DNA of 64,000 nt from Caldichromatium japonicum (GTDB taxonomy: Bacteria > Pseudomonadota > Gammaproteobacteria > Chromatiales > Chromatiaceae), in contig NZ_CP048029.1 in the NCBI RefSeq assembly GCF_011290485.1, positions 2,242,501 to 2,306,500 on the forward strand, read 5' to 3'. Positions 23,769 to 33,203 of this stretch are shown in pieces; position 1 is the first letter of the stretch; each line of letters begins with the position of its first letter. Below the pieces are notes generated by a model that made no database searches, had not been told where the DNA came from, and saw only the letters and a program-made list of their open reading frames with translations. A program made the position numbers and the translations under genes.

Positions 23769-24533
23769 TCAGACTCCAGCGGTTGCAGCCGTACGCAGCT
23801 CATGCGCCAATTCGGGTCCGAGATAGCGTTCGATCGCGGCATGTCCCAGATAGATCAAGGGGGTTAAGGCGATAGCAACGACAAACTTATAGACATAGTT
23901 GACCGTACCAACAGCGAGAAACAAGTCGATCGGCCAGTGCTGGGGACCGATGACAAAAGCGATATAGAGGACTACAAAGCTGTCGATCAGTTGCGAGATC
24001 AGGGTCGAACCCGTCGCCCGCGCCCAGACATGCTGCTGACCCGTGAACCGACGGATGCGATGAAAGATGGTGACATCGACGAGCTGGCCGATAAGAAAGG
24101 CGATCACCGAACCGACAATGATCCACATCCCTTGGCCGAAAATGGCGGAAAAGGCGGCCTGCATATCTGGCACGCCCTGCTCAGCCTGAATGCTGATCCA
24201 CCAATCGGCAGGGGCTAAGGCGATCGCGAGATAGGCAAAGGCAAAGGCGTACAGGATCAAGCCGACGGTGAGATAAGACAGAAACTGCACCCCGCGTCGG
24301 CCATAATATTCATTGATGATGTCGGTCATGATAAAGACCACTGGCCAGAGCAAAACGCCAGCGGTAAAGCTCAGAGAGCCGGATTGACCAAAGAGATCCC
24401 AGTTGAAAGGCTCAAGACCCAGTGTTTCTTCGAGTGCAAAGATCTTGACCCCGAGAAACTCAGCGATCAGGGCATTGCAGATAAAAAAGCCCCCAAGGAT
24501 GATGAACAACTTGGTTGAGCGATCAAAACACAT
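23769..24533 (-). CDS. yhhQ: queuosine precursor transporter (YhhQ/DUF165)
   Basis: Inner-membrane importer for queuosine precursors such as preQ0/preQ1 (QPTR family). 254 residues from the ATG at 24531-24533; a TTG six codons upstream is also open. Six predicted membrane helices. Family marks: N-A-L-I-A-E-F-L-G-V-K near 20, WPVVFIMTDIINEYYGRRG near 62 with the conserved Asp and Glu, and LISQLIDSFVVLYIAF near 180. The left end of IS630 copy A lies about 37 bp upstream, and no Shine-Dalgarno is visible, so the native promoter may have been displaced. Confidence 0.9.
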   Translation of the reverse strand: MCFDRSTKLFIILGGFFICNALIAEFLGVKIFALEETLGLEPFNWDLFGQSGSLSFTAGVLLWPVVFIMTDIINEYYGRRGVQFLSYLTVGLILYAFAFAYLAIALAPADWWISIQAEQGVPDMQAAFSAIFGQGMWIIVGSVIAFLIGQLVDVTIFHRIRRFTGQQHVWARATGSTLISQLIDSFVVLYIAFVIGPQHWPIDLFLAVGTVNYVYKFVVAIALTPLIYLGHAAIERYLGPELAHELRTAATAGV

Positions 24534-24569
24534 AGAGATGGAGGGAAACAAAAAATGAAAACAAGAGAT

Positions 24570-25634
24570 AATGAACTTAAATGTTACGCGGCATCATGGA
24601 GCTTGGGATGCTGGAAGTAGCGCATGATGCGTTGGGGGGAATTGAGAAGGCGGCGCAGGTGGCTGACGGTCGCCTTCTTCAGATCGCCCTTGGCGCGGGA
24701 GGGCGCCTGCGCGGTGATGGTGGCCTTGAGCATCTCGTTGGGGTTCAGTGCCGGGCTGTAGGGGGGGAGGGAGGAGGCCTCGATTTGATTGGCGCATGCA
24801 GCCAGCCAGGCTTTGACCGGCTTGGTGTGATGCACGCGCAGGTTGTCGAGGATGAGGAAGATCTTCTTGCCCCTGGCGTCCTTGACGAGCCGCTTCATGA
24901 AGTCGATCAGGATGTCGGCGTTCATCGCCCCCGCGAACGCCTTCCGACGCACCTTGCCGCGGTTGGTCAGCGTCGAGATCACCGACAGGCCTTCGCGACG
25001 GTGCGTGACGCGAATCTCGGGCGTCTTGATCGCCGGCGCATAAGAGCGCCCGCGCACCTCGTCCGAGCGCAACCCCGTTTCATCGCCCCAGTGGATTTCG
25101 GCGCCCTCGGCCTTGGCGCGCCGGGCAATGTCCGGGTAGGTCTCCTCAAGCCACGTCTTGCCCGCCGGCGGGCTTTGCTCATAGGCGCGCCGAATCGGTT
25201 TCTGGGGCGTCAATCCCCAGCGCGCCATGTACTTGCCCTCCCCCTGCGGCCTGAGCTCGATGCCAAAACGGCCGAGGATCAACTGCCGCACCGCCTGCCG
25301 GCTCCACAGCGCAAACGGCAGCTTCAGCTGATCCGGTGTCCCGTCGCACATGAGCTTGCGTATCTGGGCGTCCTGCTCCGCCAACAGCGCCCGCTTCTCA
25401 CCCACCTTGCGCCTACCCCGCTTGCCCTTGGGCCCCTTCGCGCCCATAGCCTTTGCAGATGTCGAACACCCCTGCGCCCAACAATCCCCTCTGCGCGCCT
25501 ATCGCTTCATACGTCCAGCTACGCCGCCGCTCTTCGCGCGCCGCAAACGACAGCAATCTCATGTCTCGTCTTTCCATGCCCACGACATCAGGACAGCTCA
25601 CTCAATTTCAAAAGCATGTGTTTCTTATCAAGAA
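24570..25634 (-). mobile_element. IS630-family insertion sequence, copy A
   Basis: About 1.06 kb, transposase on the minus strand. The right end carries the terminal repeat (CATGTGTTTCTTATCAAGAA). The left end lacks the outer roughly 16 bp seen in copies B-D and begins at AATGAACTT. Compared with copies B and C it is internally complete. Confidence 0.9.
24584..25601 (-). pseudogene. IS630 transposase, copy A, frameshifted
   Basis: The N-terminal DNA-binding part (start M-E-R-R-D-M-R-L-L, ending in frame at [12 protein letters not shown]) occupies 25413-25601. The rest continues in another frame from 25447 to 24584. The catalytic DDE set is present in the second part: IHWGDETGLRS, LILDNLRVHHTK and LNPNEML. 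The switch lies around 25420-25440, where other copies have a different sequence, so this is more likely a lesion than a programmed shift. The VRRKAFAG variant groups copy A with copy B. Confidence 0.85.
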
Positions 25635-26218: not shown

Positions 26219-27112
26219 ATGGATGACCAGCCGCTGATTGAGGGCTTTGCCGATGCACTCTGGATGGAGCGCGGTCTAAGCCAAAACACCCTTGCCGCCT
26301 ATCAAGCCGATCTACGTGATCTTGCCCGATGGTTGCAGAAAACACGCGGGCGCGGTCTACTCGCCGCTGAACGTGCCGATCTGCTCGATTATCTGGCAAC
26401 GCTTGCCGGTCAGGGCTATCGGGCACGCTCCAGCGCCAGACGGCTGTCTTGTCTGCGCCAGTTTTATCAATATCTCTATCGCCGCGGTATGATCAGTGTC
26501 GATCCCACCGCTCGCATCGCTGCCCCTAAGCTGGGGCGCCAGCTCCCAGATACCCTGACTGAATCCGAGGTCGAGGCCTTATTGCAGGCCCCTGATGTCA
26601 CTGAGGCCGAAGGTCAGCGCGACCGTACCATGCTCGAGGTCCTCTATGCTACCGGCCTTCGGGTCAGCGAGCTGGTCAATTTAAGGCCCGAGCAAGTCAG
26701 TCTGACCCAGGGCGTCGTGCGCGTCATCGGCAAGGGCGGGCGCGAGCGTTTAGTGCCGCTCGGCGAGGAGGCATTGCGCTGGCTGGCCGCCTATCTGCGG
26801 TTCCCCCGTCAGGAGATCCTCGCTGGGCGGCTGAGCGATTTTTTGTTTCCAACCCGCCGCTGCGACCGGATGACCCGTCAGGCATTCTGGTTGCTGATCA
26901 AACGCTATGCGTTACAGGCGGGGATCGTGAAACCGCTCTCCCCCCATACCCTCCGTCATGCCTTTGCTACCCATCTGCTCAACCACGGCGCGGATCTGCG
27001 GGTCGTGCAGCTTTTGCTAGGTCACAGCGATCTTTCAACCACCCAGATCTATACCCATGTCGCCCGCGAACGTCTCAAATCGCTCCATGCCCAGCATCAT
27101 CCGCGAGGTTAA
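26219..27112 (+). CDS. xerD: site-specific tyrosine recombinase XerD
   Basis: Resolves chromosome dimers at dif together with XerC and FtsK. 297 residues. An N-terminal SAM-like core-binding domain (LSQNTLAAYQADLRDLARWL) is followed by the catalytic domain: first Arg in LYATGLRVSEL near 147, then Lys in GKGGRERLVPL, H-x-x-R in HTLRHAFATHLLNHGADLR near 243, and the nucleophilic Tyr in TTQIYTHV near 279. The neighbouring dsbC downstream is the common gammaproteobacterial arrangement and favours XerD over XerC. Confidence 0.94.
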   Translation: MDDQPLIEGFADALWMERGLSQNTLAAYQADLRDLARWLQKTRGRGLLAAERADLLDYLATLAGQGYRARSSARRLSCLRQFYQYLYRRGMISVDPTARIAAPKLGRQLPDTLTESEVEALLQAPDVTEAEGQRDRTMLEVLYATGLRVSELVNLRPEQVSLTQGVVRVIGKGGRERLVPLGEEALRWLAAYLRFPRQEILAGRLSDFLFPTRRCDRMTRQAFWLLIKRYALQAGIVKPLSPHTLRHAFATHLLNHGADLRVVQLLLGHSDLSTTQIYTHVARERLKSLHAQHHPRG

Positions 27113-27231
27113 CAGGCGATGCCTGTACCCCAGATGTCTGATGAATGGGTTAAGATTGAATCTGATGCACTGGTCGCCTAGGCGGAAGTGCCTGCTTCAT
27201 GCTCAATAGCCGCCCTTTAGGTCCAATCGTT

Positions 27232-27969
27232 ATGCCAAAGATCCATCGTCTCCTCCCATTTTTCTTGCTGAGCTTAACGTTTGTCGCTGTGCCGGCTCTA
27301 GCCGCCCCCGAAGACACGATTCGCGCGGCGCTGAAAGAGATCGCACCTGATCTTAAGGTCACCAGTATCACCCCCTCGCCGATCAAGGGGCTGTATGAGG
27401 TCATGGCCGGGGCCGAGGTGCTATATATCACCGCCGATGGCCGTCATTTCATCAGTGGGCACATCGTGGACCTGAAAACCCGCACCGATCTCACCGAACC
27501 GCGTGTCTCTGAAGCCCGCAAACGCCTGATCGACGCCGTCAGTGAGGATCGAATGGTGATCTTCGGTGATCAGAACGCCAAACATACCATCACCGTATTT
27601 ACCGATATCGAATGCGGCTATTGTCGCAAGTTGCATCGTCAGATCGACGATTATCTCAAGGAGGGGATTCGAGTACGCTATCTCTTCTTCCCCCGTGCTG
27701 GTAAAGGAAGTCAAGCATTCGATGAGGCAGTCTCGGTGTGGTGTGCCGGTGACGCTGAGGCGCGCCGCATTGCTCTGACCCGCGCCAAGGCCGGCGAGAC
27801 GATCGACTCCAAGACCTGTGACAACCCTGTTGAGGCACACATGCTGCTGGGCATGGATCTCGGTTTGAGCGGTACCCCAGCGATCATCACTGAATCCGGC
27901 GAACTGATCCCCGGGTATGTCGAGCCGCGGCGCCTGGCAGCACGGCTCAATGCGCAAAGCGGTGGTTAG
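27232..27969 (+). CDS. dsbC: thiol:disulfide isomerase DsbC
   Basis: Periplasmic disulfide isomerase. 245 residues from the ATG at 27232 (M-P-K-I-H, signal peptide LLPFFLLSLTFVAVPALA). The N-terminal dimerisation domain includes SPIKGLYEVMAGAEVLYITADG. The thioredoxin fold has the CGYC active site in IECGYCRKLHRQI near 122, a second Cys pair (VWCAGDAEAR and SKTCDN) and the cis-Pro SGTPAII near 213. An upstream in-frame ATG at 27199 would spoil the signal peptide. Confidence 0.95.
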   Translation: MPKIHRLLPFFLLSLTFVAVPALAAPEDTIRAALKEIAPDLKVTSITPSPIKGLYEVMAGAEVLYITADGRHFISGHIVDLKTRTDLTEPRVSEARKRLIDAVSEDRMVIFGDQNAKHTITVFTDIECGYCRKLHRQIDDYLKEGIRVRYLFFPRAGKGSQAFDEAVSVWCAGDAEARRIALTRAKAGETIDSKTCDNPVEAHMLLGMDLGLSGTPAIITESGELIPGYVEPRRLAARLNAQSGG

Positions 27970-28011: not shown

Positions 28012-28821
28012 ATGACACAATCCAAACCATTTAGCGCCTTTGTCCTCGAATTCGTCTGGCGGACGGATCAAGGTCGCATGCGCCAGCGCAACGAGGATGC
28101 CATCGTCGTGCGACCCGATTGGGGGGTAGTGGTCGTCGCAGATGGCATCGGTGGCTCGACGGCTGGTCATGTCGCCAGCCGGCTGGCGACAGAGACCATT
28201 GCCGAGCGTCTCGGACGTAGCTCCGATCCTCGCTCGGATGCGGAACGATGGCGTCTCTATCTCCAGGCCACGGTAGAAGAGGCCAATATCGCCATCCTGC
28301 GCTATGCGAAGGAGCACAGCGATTGCTCAGGCATGGGCACCACTGTGGTAACCGGGGTAGTGGGTTGGGATTGGCTGGCCTTTGCCTATGTCGGCGACTC
28401 CCGCCTCTACCGGTTGCACGGCGAAACCCTGACCCAGCTCTCGCGCGATCACTCATTCATCCAAAAGGTCGTGGATCAAGGATTTTTCGATACGCGCGAG
28501 GATGCCAGACGCTATGGGATCAGCGACAACATCCTGACCCGTGCTTTGGGTTCCCTGCCGAGCGTGACTGTCTCAGCCGATACGGTCGAGATTGCGACGG
28601 GGGATGTGTTCCTGTTTTGTACTGATGGGCTCAGCGGCATGGTTCCTGATGACTGGCTGCGGCAGATCCTCCTGGCTGCTAAGTCTGAGACGCTCGAGGT
28701 GGCTGCTGATGCCTTGGTGCAACTGGCCAATGAGCGCGGCGGGACGGATAACATCACTCTTGCCTTGGTGCGCGTCGGCGAGTGTCTCCGGAACTCATCT
28801 GCTACGGACGCCCCTGCCTGA
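28012..28821 (+). CDS. PP2C-family serine/threonine phosphatase
   Basis: Metal-dependent protein phosphatase, cytoplasmic. 269 residues, no membrane segment. PP2C motifs in order: RQRNEDAI near 24, VVVADGIGGSTAGH near 41, FAYVGDSRLYRLHG near 124, LTRALGS, FLFCTDGLSGMVPDDWL near 201 and GGTDNITLALV near 246. Such stand-alone enzymes usually oppose a Hanks-type kinase, but none lies nearby. The 3' end overlaps the convergent cytochrome gene by 20 bp. Confidence 0.93.
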   Translation: MTQSKPFSAFVLEFVWRTDQGRMRQRNEDAIVVRPDWGVVVVADGIGGSTAGHVASRLATETIAERLGRSSDPRSDAERWRLYLQATVEEANIAILRYAKEHSDCSGMGTTVVTGVVGWDWLAFAYVGDSRLYRLHGETLTQLSRDHSFIQKVVDQGFFDTREDARRYGISDNILTRALGSLPSVTVSADTVEIATGDVFLFCTDGLSGMVPDDWLRQILLAAKSETLEVAADALVQLANERGGTDNITLALVRVGECLRNSSATDAPA

Positions 28822-29116
28822 TCTGCATATGTAGATACTGGGCGATGGCCTCGATCTGATCGCGCTGCATCTGGTCGAAGATCGGCATCTTGGTGTCAGG
28901 TGCACGCCGATGCCCTTGGATAAGATCAACAAAGACAGTCAGTTCCAGATTTTCATACCTCAGGGGTGGAACCCCTTTGAGGAAATTGCCTTGTGCCAGG
29001 TCGCGATGACAGCCGGCGCAGTGATGTTCATAGAGCGCCTTGCCAGATGTAAACGCTGGATAATCCTGACCACTTGGTCCACAACCCATCAGTAGGGCAC
29101 TGATTATTGAGAGGAA
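28802..29116 (-). pseudogene. cytochrome c lipoprotein, start lost at foreign-DNA junction
   Basis: The haem domain is intact: HHCAGCHRD and the Met ligand region DTKMPIFDQM, a class I cytochrome of about 90 residues. Reading upstream of the first ATG (29087-29089), the frame continues as S-S-F-L-S-I-I-S-A-L-L-M-G-C-G, which is the hydrophobic core and lipobox of a lipoprotein signal. The frame then enters the neighbouring foreign block and meets a stop at about 29153-29155 without any ATG, GTG or TTG. The start codon and basic N-terminus are therefore missing. The first ATG within the lipobox would give a cytosolic, non-functional product. A candidate lost start is discussed at 32757-32759. 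Confidence 0.7.
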
Positions 29117-29118
29117 CG

Positions 29119-30015
29119 ATGATGGAAGAACGCAAGGATGACGTCGCCGTCTTTATCGATTTTGAGAACATCTATATCTCCGTACGCGAAAAGTACAAGA
29201 CCAACCCCAACTTTGAGTATATTACCGACCATTGCGCCAAGTACGGGCGGGTGGTAATCGCCCGGGCCTATGCCGACTGGTACCAGTTCTCGCGGGTCAC
29301 TAACGCCCTCTATGCCAACGGCATCGAGCCCCGTTACGTGCCGACCTATTACTACAGCGACGAGCGCGATCCTTCCCCCGGCTCGGCCATCAAGAACAGC
29401 GTCGATATCCACCTCGTCATCGACGCCATGCGCACGCTCTACAACAACCCCAATATCCAGGTGTACGTCCTGGTCACCGGCGATCGCGATCGCGATCGCG
29501 ATTTTATCCCCCTGCTCAACACCATCCGCCGGCACGGCAAGCGCGTCGTGGTGATCGGCGTGGCCAAAGCGGCCTCCTCCCACCTGGCCCAGAGCGCCGA
29601 CGAGTTCGTCTTTTACCACCAACTGGCCGAGGATATTGTCCCGCAGGAGGTCAAGACGAAGGATGTCTACGATGTGCTGGTGGAAGCCGTGCACGTCGCC
29701 CGCAAGCGCAAGAACCCCGTCACCCTGTCCACGCTCAAGTCGCTGATGAAAGAACTGTTGGGCGACTTTGACGAGGGGAAATACACCCATGCCCAAGGGA
29801 AGCACTTTTCCCGCTTTAAGGACTTTGTGCGCGAGGCCGAGCGTCGAGGCAAGGTGCAGATGTTGACCACCGGCACGGTGAACGAGGTTTTTCTCCCCGC
29901 TGAAAACCCCTACGAACTCAGCTCCTTTGCCCTGCCGCCCCTGGAGGCCAAAGCGGAAGCCAAGCCCAAGGAGGAAAAACGCCAGGTCTCAGCCAAGGGG
30001 ACGGCCGAAGCCTAG
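29119..30015 (+). CDS. NYN-domain (LabA/PIN-like) putative ribonuclease
   Basis: 298 residues from the ATG at 29119 (ATG at 29122 equally possible; GAGAGGA upstream). An N-terminal NYN/PIN-like nuclease domain has acidic residues in VAVFIDFENIYI near 9-20, the NSVDIHLVIDAMRTL segment near 96, and the acidic motif VTGDRDRDRDFIPLL near 120, which contains an in-frame expansion of Asp-Arg. A C-terminal OST-HTH/LOTUS-like domain follows (VTLSTLKSLMKELLGDFDEG... FSRFKDFVREAERRGKVQ), then a charged Lys/Glu tail. NYN-LOTUS proteins are thought to act on RNA. In wording and codon use it looks like a Chloroflexota protein rather than its neighbours; this is judgement, not a search. Confidence 0.85.
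   Translation: MMEERKDDVAVFIDFENIYISVREKYKTNPNFEYITDHCAKYGRVVIARAYADWYQFSRVTNALYANGIEPRYVPTYYYSDERDPSPGSAIKNSVDIHLVIDAMRTLYNNPNIQVYVLVTGDRDRDRDFIPLLNTIRRHGKRVVVIGVAKAASSHLAQSADEFVFYHQLAEDIVPQEVKTKDVYDVLVEAVHVARKRKNPVTLSTLKSLMKELLGDFDEGKYTHAQGKHFSRFKDFVREAERRGKVQMLTTGTVNEVFLPAENPYELSSFALPPLEAKAEAKPKEEKRQVSAKGTAEA
29482..29502 (+). repeat. in-frame GATCGC tandem repeat in the NYN motif
   Basis: Three consecutive GATCGC units plus GAT encode D-R-D-R-D-R-D at the acidic nuclease motif, where family members normally have a single G-D-x-D. It probably arose by slippage; copy number may vary. Confidence 0.85.
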
Positions 30016-30045
30016 GTGTGCTGGGCCTCTACATTGGGGTTCCCC

Positions 30046-31808
30046 ATGGTCAATTCTCCCCATCACCAGACGACCGGCTGCGTCCCCAGCCTGCTCATCG
30101 CCCTCATGCTGGGATGGGCCGGAGCCGTTCCGCTCGTGTCGGGCCTTATCTTCCTGGCAGGCCGGGAAGTCCTGACCTGGGCCTTCCTGACCAGAACAGC
30201 CGTAGCCCTGGTGGCCCCACTGCTGGCTGTGGCTTTGCTTTCCCGCCGCCGACCAGCCTGGCGCGCCGTAGCCGCTACGGCCTCGGCGCTGCTCGCTATG
30301 GCCGGCTTTCTGCTCCTCAGCCTGCCGGACCTGGTCTGGGTAACAGCCGACCCGGTCCTGGGGTCGCTATTGCGCCTGGGGCTGCTCGGCGGCTACGCCG
30401 TGCTGGCCGCGGTGTGGGCTCCGCGCCTGGCCGGCCTGGGGGGCAGCGCCTGGGCACCGTGCTGGGCCTCGACCGCCTGCGTCTGGGCCCGCTTCTCCTG
30501 GCGCTGGTCCTGGCCGCTTTGCTCACCTTGCCCTGGCTACTCGTCGGTGCCCTGGGGGATCGCTTCACCAGCCTGCAACAGGCCCTGCAGGCGCTGGCCA
30601 GGGCGTTGCCGGAGATCTTGCTCTTCTGGGGGCTTGTCTACTTCCTCTTCCGCTCCACCTGGGTGCGCCTCTGGCCGGCCGTATTGTCCCTCTTGTTGTC
30701 CTATGGGCTGTTTTTTGTCGCCGCCCATCTCACATCCCCCATCGAAACGGCCCTCCAGGATGTCCTGATCCTCCTTCCGCTGGTCCCGCTCCTGGCCGAA
30801 CTGCGGGCACGCGGCAGTGGCATCTACCCCTCCCTGGTCCTGGCCTGGCCGGCCTATGCCGTTCCCATCCTCTTTGTGGATCCCCGCAATATGCTCCCCA
30901 ACAACGAGCCGGAGCCGCTCCACCTAGCTGCCTATGCCGGTGTTGCGGCTACCGCCCTGAGCCTGGCGCTTTTTCTGTGGACGGAGCGACACTTGCGCCG
31001 TGTCCTTTGGCAGGAACGCCCGCGCCCGCTACTTCCCGGACGGTTCGTCGCCGCCCTCGGCGTGGTGGCCGCCCTGGGCGTGCTCCTGCTCTGGGGCACG
31101 CTCTACCGGCAGGCCGGCGTCCCCGGCTTTGCCGATGATGGGCTGCTCATCATCCTGCGCGAGCAGGCCGATCTGAGCCCGGCGCAGCAGATCGCCGGCC
31201 GTGCGGCACGGCTGCAATTCGTCTACCGAACCCTTGTGGAGACGGCCGAACGTACCCAACCTCCTCTGCGGGCCGAACTGGAGCAGCTCGGGGTACGCTA
31301 CCGTCCCTACTATCTCGTCAACATGATCCGTGTGGAGGGGCGGCGCGACCTGTACGGCCGCTTCGCCGGCCGGCCGGAGGTGGCGAATGTCCTCGTCAAC
31401 CCCAACGTGCGTCGGTACCCGCGCCATCTCTCGCTCACCGGGTTGGTGGGAGATGTCCCTGCCGCGGAAACCGCGCCGAACCTGCTCGCGATCCATGTGG
31501 ACGAAGCCTGGGTCCTGGGGGCCTGGGGACAGGGCATCGTCGTGGCCGGCCAGGACACCGGCTACGATTGGACGCACCCGGCCCTGCAGAGCCGCTACCG
31601 CGGCTAGGATGGCCAACGTGCCGACCACGACTATAACTGGCACGATGCCTGGGGCGAGAGCGCCGTACCTTTTGACGAAGACGGGCACGGGACGCACACC
31701 ATGGGCATCATCCTGGGGCAGGATGCCAGCAACGACTACCGCATCGGCGTAGCCCCGGAGGCCCGCTGGATCGGCTGCCGCAACATGCGCCGCGGACTGG
31801 GCAATCCC
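30046..31808 (+). pseudogene. membrane-fused subtilase (S8) gene, three lesions
   Basis: Reconstructed across lesions, the protein starts near 30046 with about eleven hydrophobic helices. Next come a propeptide-like region (FADDGLLIILREQADLS, FVYRTLVETAERTQPPLRAEL, VRYRPYYLVNMIRVEG) and the start of a subtilisin domain with the catalytic Asp in VAGQDTGYDWTHPAL and His in DEDGHGTHTMGIILG. Lesions: a frameshift in a six-G run at 30438-30443; an in-frame TAG at 31605-31607, where related sequences would have Trp; and truncation at about 31808 by IS630 copy B, before the catalytic Ser. Style suggests Chloroflexota origin. The membrane N-terminus fused to S8 is unusual. Confidence 0.8.
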
Positions 31809-32739
31809 TAAGAAACACATGCTTTTGAAATTGAGTGAGCTGTCCTGATGTCGTGGGCATGGAAAGACGAGACATGAGATTGCTGTCGTTTGCGGCGCGC
31901 GAAGAGCGGCGGCGTAGCTGGACGTATGAAGCGATAGGCGCGCAGAGGGGATTGTTGGGCGCAGGGGTGTTCGACATCTGCAAAGGCTATGGGCGCGAAG
32001 GGGCCCAAGGGCTCAAGGAAAGGTGGGTGAGAAGCGGGCGCTGTTGGCGGAGCAGGACGCCCAGATACGCAAGCTCATGTGCGACGGGACACCGGATGAG
32101 CTGAAGCTGCCGTTTGCGCTGTGGAGCCGGCAGGCGGTGCGGCAGTTGATCCTCGACCGTTTTGGCATCGAGCTCAGGCCGCAGGGGGAAGGCAAGTACA
32201 TGGCGCGCTGGGGATTGACGCCCCAGAAACCGATTCGGCGCGCCTATGAGCAAAGCCCGCAGGCGATCAAGACGCCCGAGATTCGCGTCACGCACCGTCG
32301 CGAAGGCCTGTCGGTGATCTCGACGCTGACCAACCGCGGCAAGGTGCGTCGGAAGGCGTTCGCGGGGGCGATGAACGCCGACATCCTGATCGACTTCATG
32401 AAGCGGCTCGTCAAGGACGCCAGGGGCAAGAAGATCTTCCTCATCCTCGACAACCTGCGCGTGCATCACACCAAGCCAGTCAAGGCCTGGCTGGCTGCAT
32501 GCGCCAATCAAATCGAGGCCTCCTCCCTCCCCCCCTACAGCCCAGCACTGAACCCCAACGAGATGCTCAAGGCCACCATCACCGCGCAGGCGCCCTCCCG
32601 CGCCAAGGACGATCTGAAGAAGGCGACCGTCAGCCACCTGCGCCGCCTTCTCAATTCCCCCCAACGCGTCATGCGCTACTTCCAGCATCCCAAGCTCCAT
32701 GATGCCGCGTAATATAAGTTCATTGGTTTCGGATCAATA
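31809..32739 (+). mobile_element. IS630-family insertion sequence, copy B, internally deleted
   Basis: About 930 bp. The left end starts at TAAGAAACACATGC and lacks the outer TTCTTGA seen in copies A and C. The right end is complete (GGTTTCGGATCAATA). It abuts the foreign block on the left and ycgN on the right. Confidence 0.88.
31835..32712 (+). pseudogene. IS630 transposase, copy B, frameshifted and catalytically deleted
   Basis: The N-terminal frame (31835-32104) runs into the same frameshift region as copy D (GAQGLKERWVR). The main frame continues from about 32023 to 32712. About 132 bp are missing after QSPQ (near 32268), removing the segment with the first catalytic Asp (IHWGDE in other copies). 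In copy A the deletion end points coincide with short CGCCGGCG repeats, suggesting slipped-strand loss. Confidence 0.88.
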
Positions 32740-32768
32740 ATTTTCCACCAATCACCCATCTGCCGGCC

Positions 32769-33203
32769 ATGAACCCCGCCTTTTGGGAAACCATTCCGCT
32801 GCATGAATTGACGCCTGAGCAATGGGAGCTACTCTGCGATGGCTGCGGCAAATGCTGCCTCGAAAAGTTCGAGGATGAAGAGACGGGTCGGATCATCTAT
32901 TCGCGCGTGGCCTGTGCCCTGCTAGATCCGGCGACTGCCCGCTGCCGCCATTATGCCGAGCGGCGCGCCCTGATGCCCGATTGCATGCCGCTCGACCTTA
33001 AAGCGCTCGCCCGTCCCCAATGGCTGCCTGAAAGCTGCGCTTATCGCCGCCTGGCTGAGAGAAGATCCCTACCCCCTTGGCACCCCCTGATTACCGGCGA
33101 TCCCGAAAGCGTGGCGCGCGCAGGAGAGAGCGTACGCGGGCGGGTGATCGGTCCTGAGAAGGGCGCCGAGCCGATTTACAATCTGATCGATTGGATTCGG
33201 TAA
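32769..33203 (+). CDS. ycgN: YcgN-family cysteine-cluster protein
   Basis: 144 residues, UPF0260/YcgN family of unknown function. The N-terminal Cys cluster CDGCGKCCLEKFED near 24, the later RVACALLDPATARCRHYAERR, MPDCMPLD, LPESCAYR and the P-x-W-H-P-L-I-T-G motif near 105 all match. The cysteines suggest a metal or Fe-S site. The start M-N-P-A-F-W-E matches the family N-terminus. It begins only 29 bp from the end of IS630 copy B, so its promoter may now lie in the insertion sequence. Confidence 0.92.
   Translation: MNPAFWETIPLHELTPEQWELLCDGCGKCCLEKFEDEETGRIIYSRVACALLDPATARCRHYAERRALMPDCMPLDLKALARPQWLPESCAYRRLAERRSLPPWHPLITGDPESVARAGESVRGRVIGPEKGAEPIYNLIDWIR

Follow-up and report, generated by a model that had tools for sequence, protein, structure and literature searches.

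The chromosome of Caldichromatium japonicum carries a real and foreign block of 2.7 kb (~29120-31808), composed of one NYN-domain gene with an open frame and one broken S8 peptidase (subtilase) gene, both of Chloroflexota origin. As read from its junctions, this foreign DNA, together with a piece of an IS630 element, is located inside a host cytochrome c gene, within the codons of the signal peptide. The complete reading, according to which a Chloroflexota fragment joined to an IS630 piece split the cytochrome gene and an inversion between two IS630 copies followed later, is in our opinion highly probable. The coordinates of the features (Table 1) refer to the window, i.e. the whole stretch of 64,000 nucleotides that was analysed. 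The neighbors of the block are a cytochrome c gene without its start on one side and IS630 copy B on the other; a reading of the sequence alone (hereafter the sequence-only reading) had placed a block at 29116-31808 between these two features, and all four elements that it named were found in place. The block is a fossil of horizontal transfer, ordinary in kind and unusually legible, and the titles and abstracts listed by literature searches contained no earlier report of this transfer from Chloroflexota to a purple sulfur bacterium.

Table 1. Features of the analysed locus, in window coordinates
Feature	Position	Strand	Remarks
Host gene B	23772-24593	-	Flanks the inverted segment on the outside; identity of 79-88% in the 7 same-genus genomes
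Cytochrome head	24555-24569	+	ATG AAA ACA AGA GAT = MKTRD; adjoins IS630 copy A at its truncated right end
IS630 copy A	24570-25634	-	Left end (25634 side) intact; right end (24570 side) lacks the last ~14 bp
Inverted host segment	25635-29119	+	Gene A, XerD-like recombinase, DsbC-like, PP2C, cytochrome body; opposite orientation in G003
XerD-like recombinase gene	26219-27112		In the inverted segment
DsbC-like gene	27199-27969		In the inverted segment
PP2C gene	28012-28821		In the inverted segment
Body of the cytochrome c lipoprotein gene	28802-29119	-	Pfam Cytochrome_CBB3, 8e-10; homologs in G003 and G006
TTATTGA	29104-29110	+	Native signal-peptide codons or outermost bases of the left end of an IS630
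NYN-domain gene, Chloroflexota origin	29122-30015	+	297 aa from 29122; alternative ATG at 29119; identified by Pfam, species scan, tree and fold match
GCGATC repeat expansion in NYN	29480-29502	+	12 bp in frame; GDRDF -> GDRDRDRDF
Membrane-anchored S8 subtilase pseudogene, Chloroflexota origin	30046-31808	+	Frameshift, TAG, cut end
IS630 copy B	31809-32740	+	Left end without TTMTTGA, starting at TAAGAAAC; complete right end; ~116 bp deleted internally
YcgN-like (CxxCxxCC) gene	32769-33203	+	Outer flank; 83% in G003; present in 7/7 same-genus genomes

The product of the first foreign gene matches the Pfam NYN domain with an E-value of 9e-32, above the gathering score, and its predicted model exhibits a confident NYN core with fold matches to 2qip and to the NYN domain of MARF1, which bears out its earlier recognition as a NYN protein. 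When 84,980 species were scanned, each represented by one genome, the best match (75% identity) came from the MAG 'Chloroflexia bacterium Zod_Metabat.323' (L009); those ranking next (44-65%) come from Chloroflexota with the exception of one unclassified MAG, and those in other phyla have about 34% identity or less. In the maximum-likelihood tree the window protein forms a pair with that of L009 (support 97/97) among the Chloroflexota, and both proteins end without the C-terminal extension that most of their other close relatives possess. No match to the gene was found in the 7 same-genus genomes, the own genome has this single NYN match, and elsewhere in the class the better matches have ~30% identity and cover the NYN domain alone. 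For the C-terminal domain, which the sequence-only reading had called LOTUS, there is no Pfam LOTUS match even at an E-value of 1; the predicted model displays a winged-helix-like arrangement in residues 182-257, which makes the LOTUS identity plausible.

The catalytic (T/S)GDRDF motif is not intact in the window protein, owing to the four extra residues. The lengthened GDRDRDRDF form occurs in the window copy only: the expansion is absent from 14 aligned Chloroflexota relatives and from all other homologs listed. With its catalytic motif split in this manner, the protein is probably inactive. The hexamer repeat lies in frame within the active-site motif, and slippage at this position could alter both its length and the motif. 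The NYN frame is open over 0.9 kb, in comparison with two lesions in the 1.76-kb piece of the subtilase; at this lesion rate an open frame would persist by chance about 1 time in 3 (our own estimate), so it cannot be taken as evidence of selection. A sequence resembling a ribosome site, GAGAGG, is supplied by host bases in front of the NYN start, and expression by read-through from the PP2C operon seems possible from this arrangement.

The second foreign gene matches Pfam Peptidase_S8 (E-value 1e-6) within its last 67 codons. It carries one frameshift (approximately at 30320-30533) and one in-frame TAG (31605-31607), and it breaks off at 31808, ahead of the catalytic Ser. Of the S8 triad, the Asp (DTGYD) and His (HGTHT) motifs are there with a stop between them, and the Ser region is missing; judging from these lesions the subtilase is dead, in agreement with the decay noticed earlier. 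In Chloroflexota, S8 subtilases that carry a membrane region at the N-terminus are common. The best relative of the window copy (55% identity over 450 aa) is an intact gene of 848 aa from the MAG that also provided the best NYN match. Among 400 Chloroflexota genomes, 70 contain a match at an E-value of 1e-30 or better, the second best having 44% identity, and among 328 genomes of other Pseudomonadota only one does, with a partial match (38%) restricted to the C-terminal half.

Each gene, taken independently, leads to the same MAG, and a donor from the Zod_Metabat.323 lineage is therefore strongly supported; the actual donor is unsampled, because the identities amount only to 75% and 55%. This confirms the Chloroflexota origin proposed from the protein style, and the search for best matches of both genes in Chromatiaceae in the same order returned none. 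In the best donor MAG the NYN and subtilase orthologues are located on different contigs with other neighbors, and no adjoining NYN-subtilase pair, as a shared donor operon would have given, was found in any Chloroflexota genome examined; the operon reading was rejected on this ground. Since the two genes were never found side by side, either the gene order in the donor differs or two donor pieces were joined, the latter being possible.

The composition of the block is unlike that of the host and like that of the donor, and the codon and tetranucleotide comparison suggested by the sequence-only reading sets the block apart from its neighbors. Its tetranucleotide usage is 3.6 SD off the window mean, and the sole more deviant among 123 sub-windows overlaps the block itself. 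On a codon score that contrasts the Chloroflexota MAG with the host, with the donor-side table built from 16 ORFs only, 32 host genes have a mean of -0.062 and a largest value of +0.005 per codon; both foreign genes score above all of them, NYN at +0.079 and the subtilase, by a small margin, at +0.012. The GC content of each gene is close to that of its own donor orthologue (0.59 vs 0.56 for NYN; 0.68 vs 0.70 for the subtilase).

The host cytochrome gene bordering the block had been described as decapitated; its start is indeed missing beside the block, but the gene is split, and its head (MKTRD, ATGAAAACAAGAGAT) was found next to IS630 copy A, 4.2 kb from the body. The head joined to the body yields an open frame, MKTRDSFLSIISALLMGCGPSG... 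(MKTRDSFLSIISALLMGCGPSGQDYPAF...), with a normal lipoprotein signal of 18 aa, equal in length to that of the nearest relative (G003). In this relative the cytochrome gene is independently frameshifted (L138 12600-12990), and in the same-genus species other than G003 and G006 no match to it was found, which indicates that the cytochrome is dispensable in the genus. A general caution follows: where a gene next to an IS seems to lack its head, the missing half may be present in another place.

Analysis of the gene order in the genus explains how the halves came to be separated. In the nearest relative the genes follow each other as YcgN-like - gene A - XerD - DsbC - PP2C - cytochrome - gene B, and in the 7 same-genus genomes gene B (which we take to be of the YhhQ-like/queuosine-precursor-transporter type) has either the cytochrome or the PP2C gene as its neighbor. 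Compared with this order, the stretch that begins with gene A and ends with the cytochrome is turned around in the window, where gene B and the YcgN-like gene flank it and an IS630 occupies each breakpoint; the NYN and subtilase genes are absent from the syntenic place in the sister species. If the inversion is undone, one complete IS lies between the YcgN-like gene and gene A, one IS with both ends truncated lies between the subtilase and gene B, and NYN, the subtilase piece and the IS630 piece form a single insertion inside the signal-peptide codons of the cytochrome. Copies A and B are in opposite orientation and each has one truncated end, copy B lacking 7 terminal bp at the left; once the inversion is undone these are the outer ends of one element, as predicted by recombination between two IS copies, which would be the cause of the inversion.

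The IS630 transposase matched its NCBIfam model above the cut-off, and the ends of the element are mostly flanked by TA, with TC at some left ends. The own genome harbors ~40 copies, mostly 94-99% identical, an expansion seen in this species only. About 18 of the 30 copies fetched (e.g. 31809-32740, L056-L072) share the same internal deletion of ~116 bp, which removes the WGDETG stretch of the transposase with the first catalytic Asp of the DDE triad, and the deleted form resembles a non-autonomous element that complete copies have multiplied in trans. Searches with the IS630 DNA gave no substantial match in 400 Chloroflexota genomes (short chance-like stretches only), none in the best donor MAG, and no match of appreciable length in 37 relatives. 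With these results we rejected IS630 as a vehicle from Chloroflexota; not found in either set of genomes, its DNA shows no transfer route.

The history that we infer would begin with a fragment from a Chloroflexota species, kin of the source of Zod_Metabat.323, on which the NYN gene was accompanied by a membrane-anchored subtilase gene cut off after two thirds of its length. Attached to part of a resident IS630, this fragment would have entered the Chromatiaceae chromosome and split the cytochrome within its signal-peptide codons. A second IS630 in the opposite orientation would have come to lie between the YcgN-like gene and gene A, and recombination between the two copies could then have inverted the 6-kb segment, carrying the head of the cytochrome 4.2 kb away from its body. 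What would have remained afterwards is a dead subtilase and a NYN gene whose frame is open and which could be reached by read-through of the PP2C operon, its product being probably inactive.

The sequence-only reading had worried about an assembly chimera, in which Chloroflexota DNA (or contamination) is wrongly joined to a host contig. The donor group is ecologically plausible for such an error, and on one side the block abuts an IS630 with ~40 copies, where assemblers can fail. However, the left junction is located outside any repeat, the other piece of the host cytochrome lies beyond the IS, and the foreign genes carry lesions of the kind expected in a host that has no need of them. The genome itself is a single 2.99-Mb contig (99.97% complete, 0.08% contamination). 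Once the inversion is undone, the foreign DNA has a half of the same host gene on either side, so that a chimera is very unlikely and the worry is largely removed. An error confined to the order is a less remote prospect, although still an improbable one: the two IS copies are ~1 kb long and nearly identical, so that their orientation is beyond short reads, and the true order could be cytochrome body - block - IS630 - cytochrome head. Against it stands the orientation given by the single-contig assembly, and such an error would leave the foreign origin untouched. The bracketing of the region by two inverted IS630 copies is also reminiscent of a composite transposon moved as a unit, which we regard as scarcely credible and have rejected: the DNA between the copies is mostly native to the host and inverted, the outer ends are truncated after undoing the inversion (copy B by 7 bp at the left, copy A by ~14 bp at the right), no target duplication bounds the block, and the own genome contains one NYN match only.

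Two courses are conceivable for the joining of the fragment to the chromosome. The Pfam Ku domain is absent from the own genome and from the 7 same-genus genomes, while the control search detected it in Bacillus subtilis; the classical bacterial route of end joining is thus not available, and we rejected insertion by Ku/LigD. The exact left boundary is uncertain within 29104-29120, and the junctions are ambiguous by several bases. The perfect signal peptide obtained by joining the halves suggests a clean insertion of the chimeric fragment at codon 5/6, but a frame-restoring join alone does not prove it, since the junctions are ambiguous. Alternatively, the cytochrome could already have harbored an IS630 at a TA, and the Chloroflexota fragment could have filled a break four bases in from the left terminus of this element, so that TTGA would have been left at 29107-29110, within the TTATTGA at 29104-29110, with the block between this TTGA and the IS end TAAGAAAC. 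We consider this second course a serious though not a favored candidate. A form of the TTATTGA motif is present at 35 of 37 IS630 left ends, and copy B lacks exactly these bases; here the motif appears in the right orientation within ~10 bp of the NYN start. By chance 6.9 occurrences are expected in 64 kb on both strands, and the coincidence, noticed after the fact, has a probability of ~0.1% per 20 bp at the shuffle rate of the window. Only two of the 37 left ends are cut, that of copy B and that of L078, both at the same base, and the DNA directly upstream of NYN weakly resembles that upstream of the donor orthologue (p ~0.06). Taken as host sequence, however, these bases give SFLSII, part of a normal 18-aa lipoprotein signal as long as in the relative; furthermore, the IS-end break requires that host bases also went missing next to the head, since in our reading of the sequence the two flanks without those bases break the frame. 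The two courses differ in what an uninterrupted cytochrome gene would contain around codons 5-10, namely TTATTGAGAGGAACGA if the insertion was clean and no TTATTGAGAGGAACGA if the IS end was broken. The choice concerns the entry step alone; foreign origin, splitting of the cytochrome gene and inversion are unaffected.

The other cut copy, L078 (L196 around 3872; G000:C1:1644871), also begins at TAAGAAAC and is located beside CRISPR-associated-looking genes. We speculate, as a long shot, that a transposase break a few bases inside the left end of IS630 itself captured the foreign fragment without detectable Ku, which would make the end of the transposon a point of entry for DNA from another phylum, with the second cut at the same base hinting at recurrence. 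Capture at an IS end, if it holds, would link transposase cutting to the uptake of foreign DNA.

The locus offers a worked example of the entry of distant DNA without homology, in which the insertion point, the split gene, the rearrangement and the decay are all readable. With other relics of interphylum transfer it shares foreign best matches and phylogeny, atypical composition, absence from sister species and decay of the passengers; it differs in that the insertion point inside a host gene is readable to ~16 bases and in that the two pieces of this gene have since been parted by an inversion. The inversion resembles those mediated by inverted IS copies elsewhere, with a 6-kb segment reversed relative to the relatives, but here one of the recombining copies would be an end-truncated fragment beside foreign DNA. 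As for the passengers, the window NYN protein has the fold and the conserved acidic motif in common with MARF1 and VPA0982 (PDB 5yaa, 2qip), whereas its GDRDF is lengthened by four residues. The subtilase has the hydrophobic N-terminus, the propeptide-like stretch and the Asp and His motifs of the Chloroflexota S8 subtilases that have a membrane region at the N-terminus, from which it differs as a pseudogene without the Ser region.
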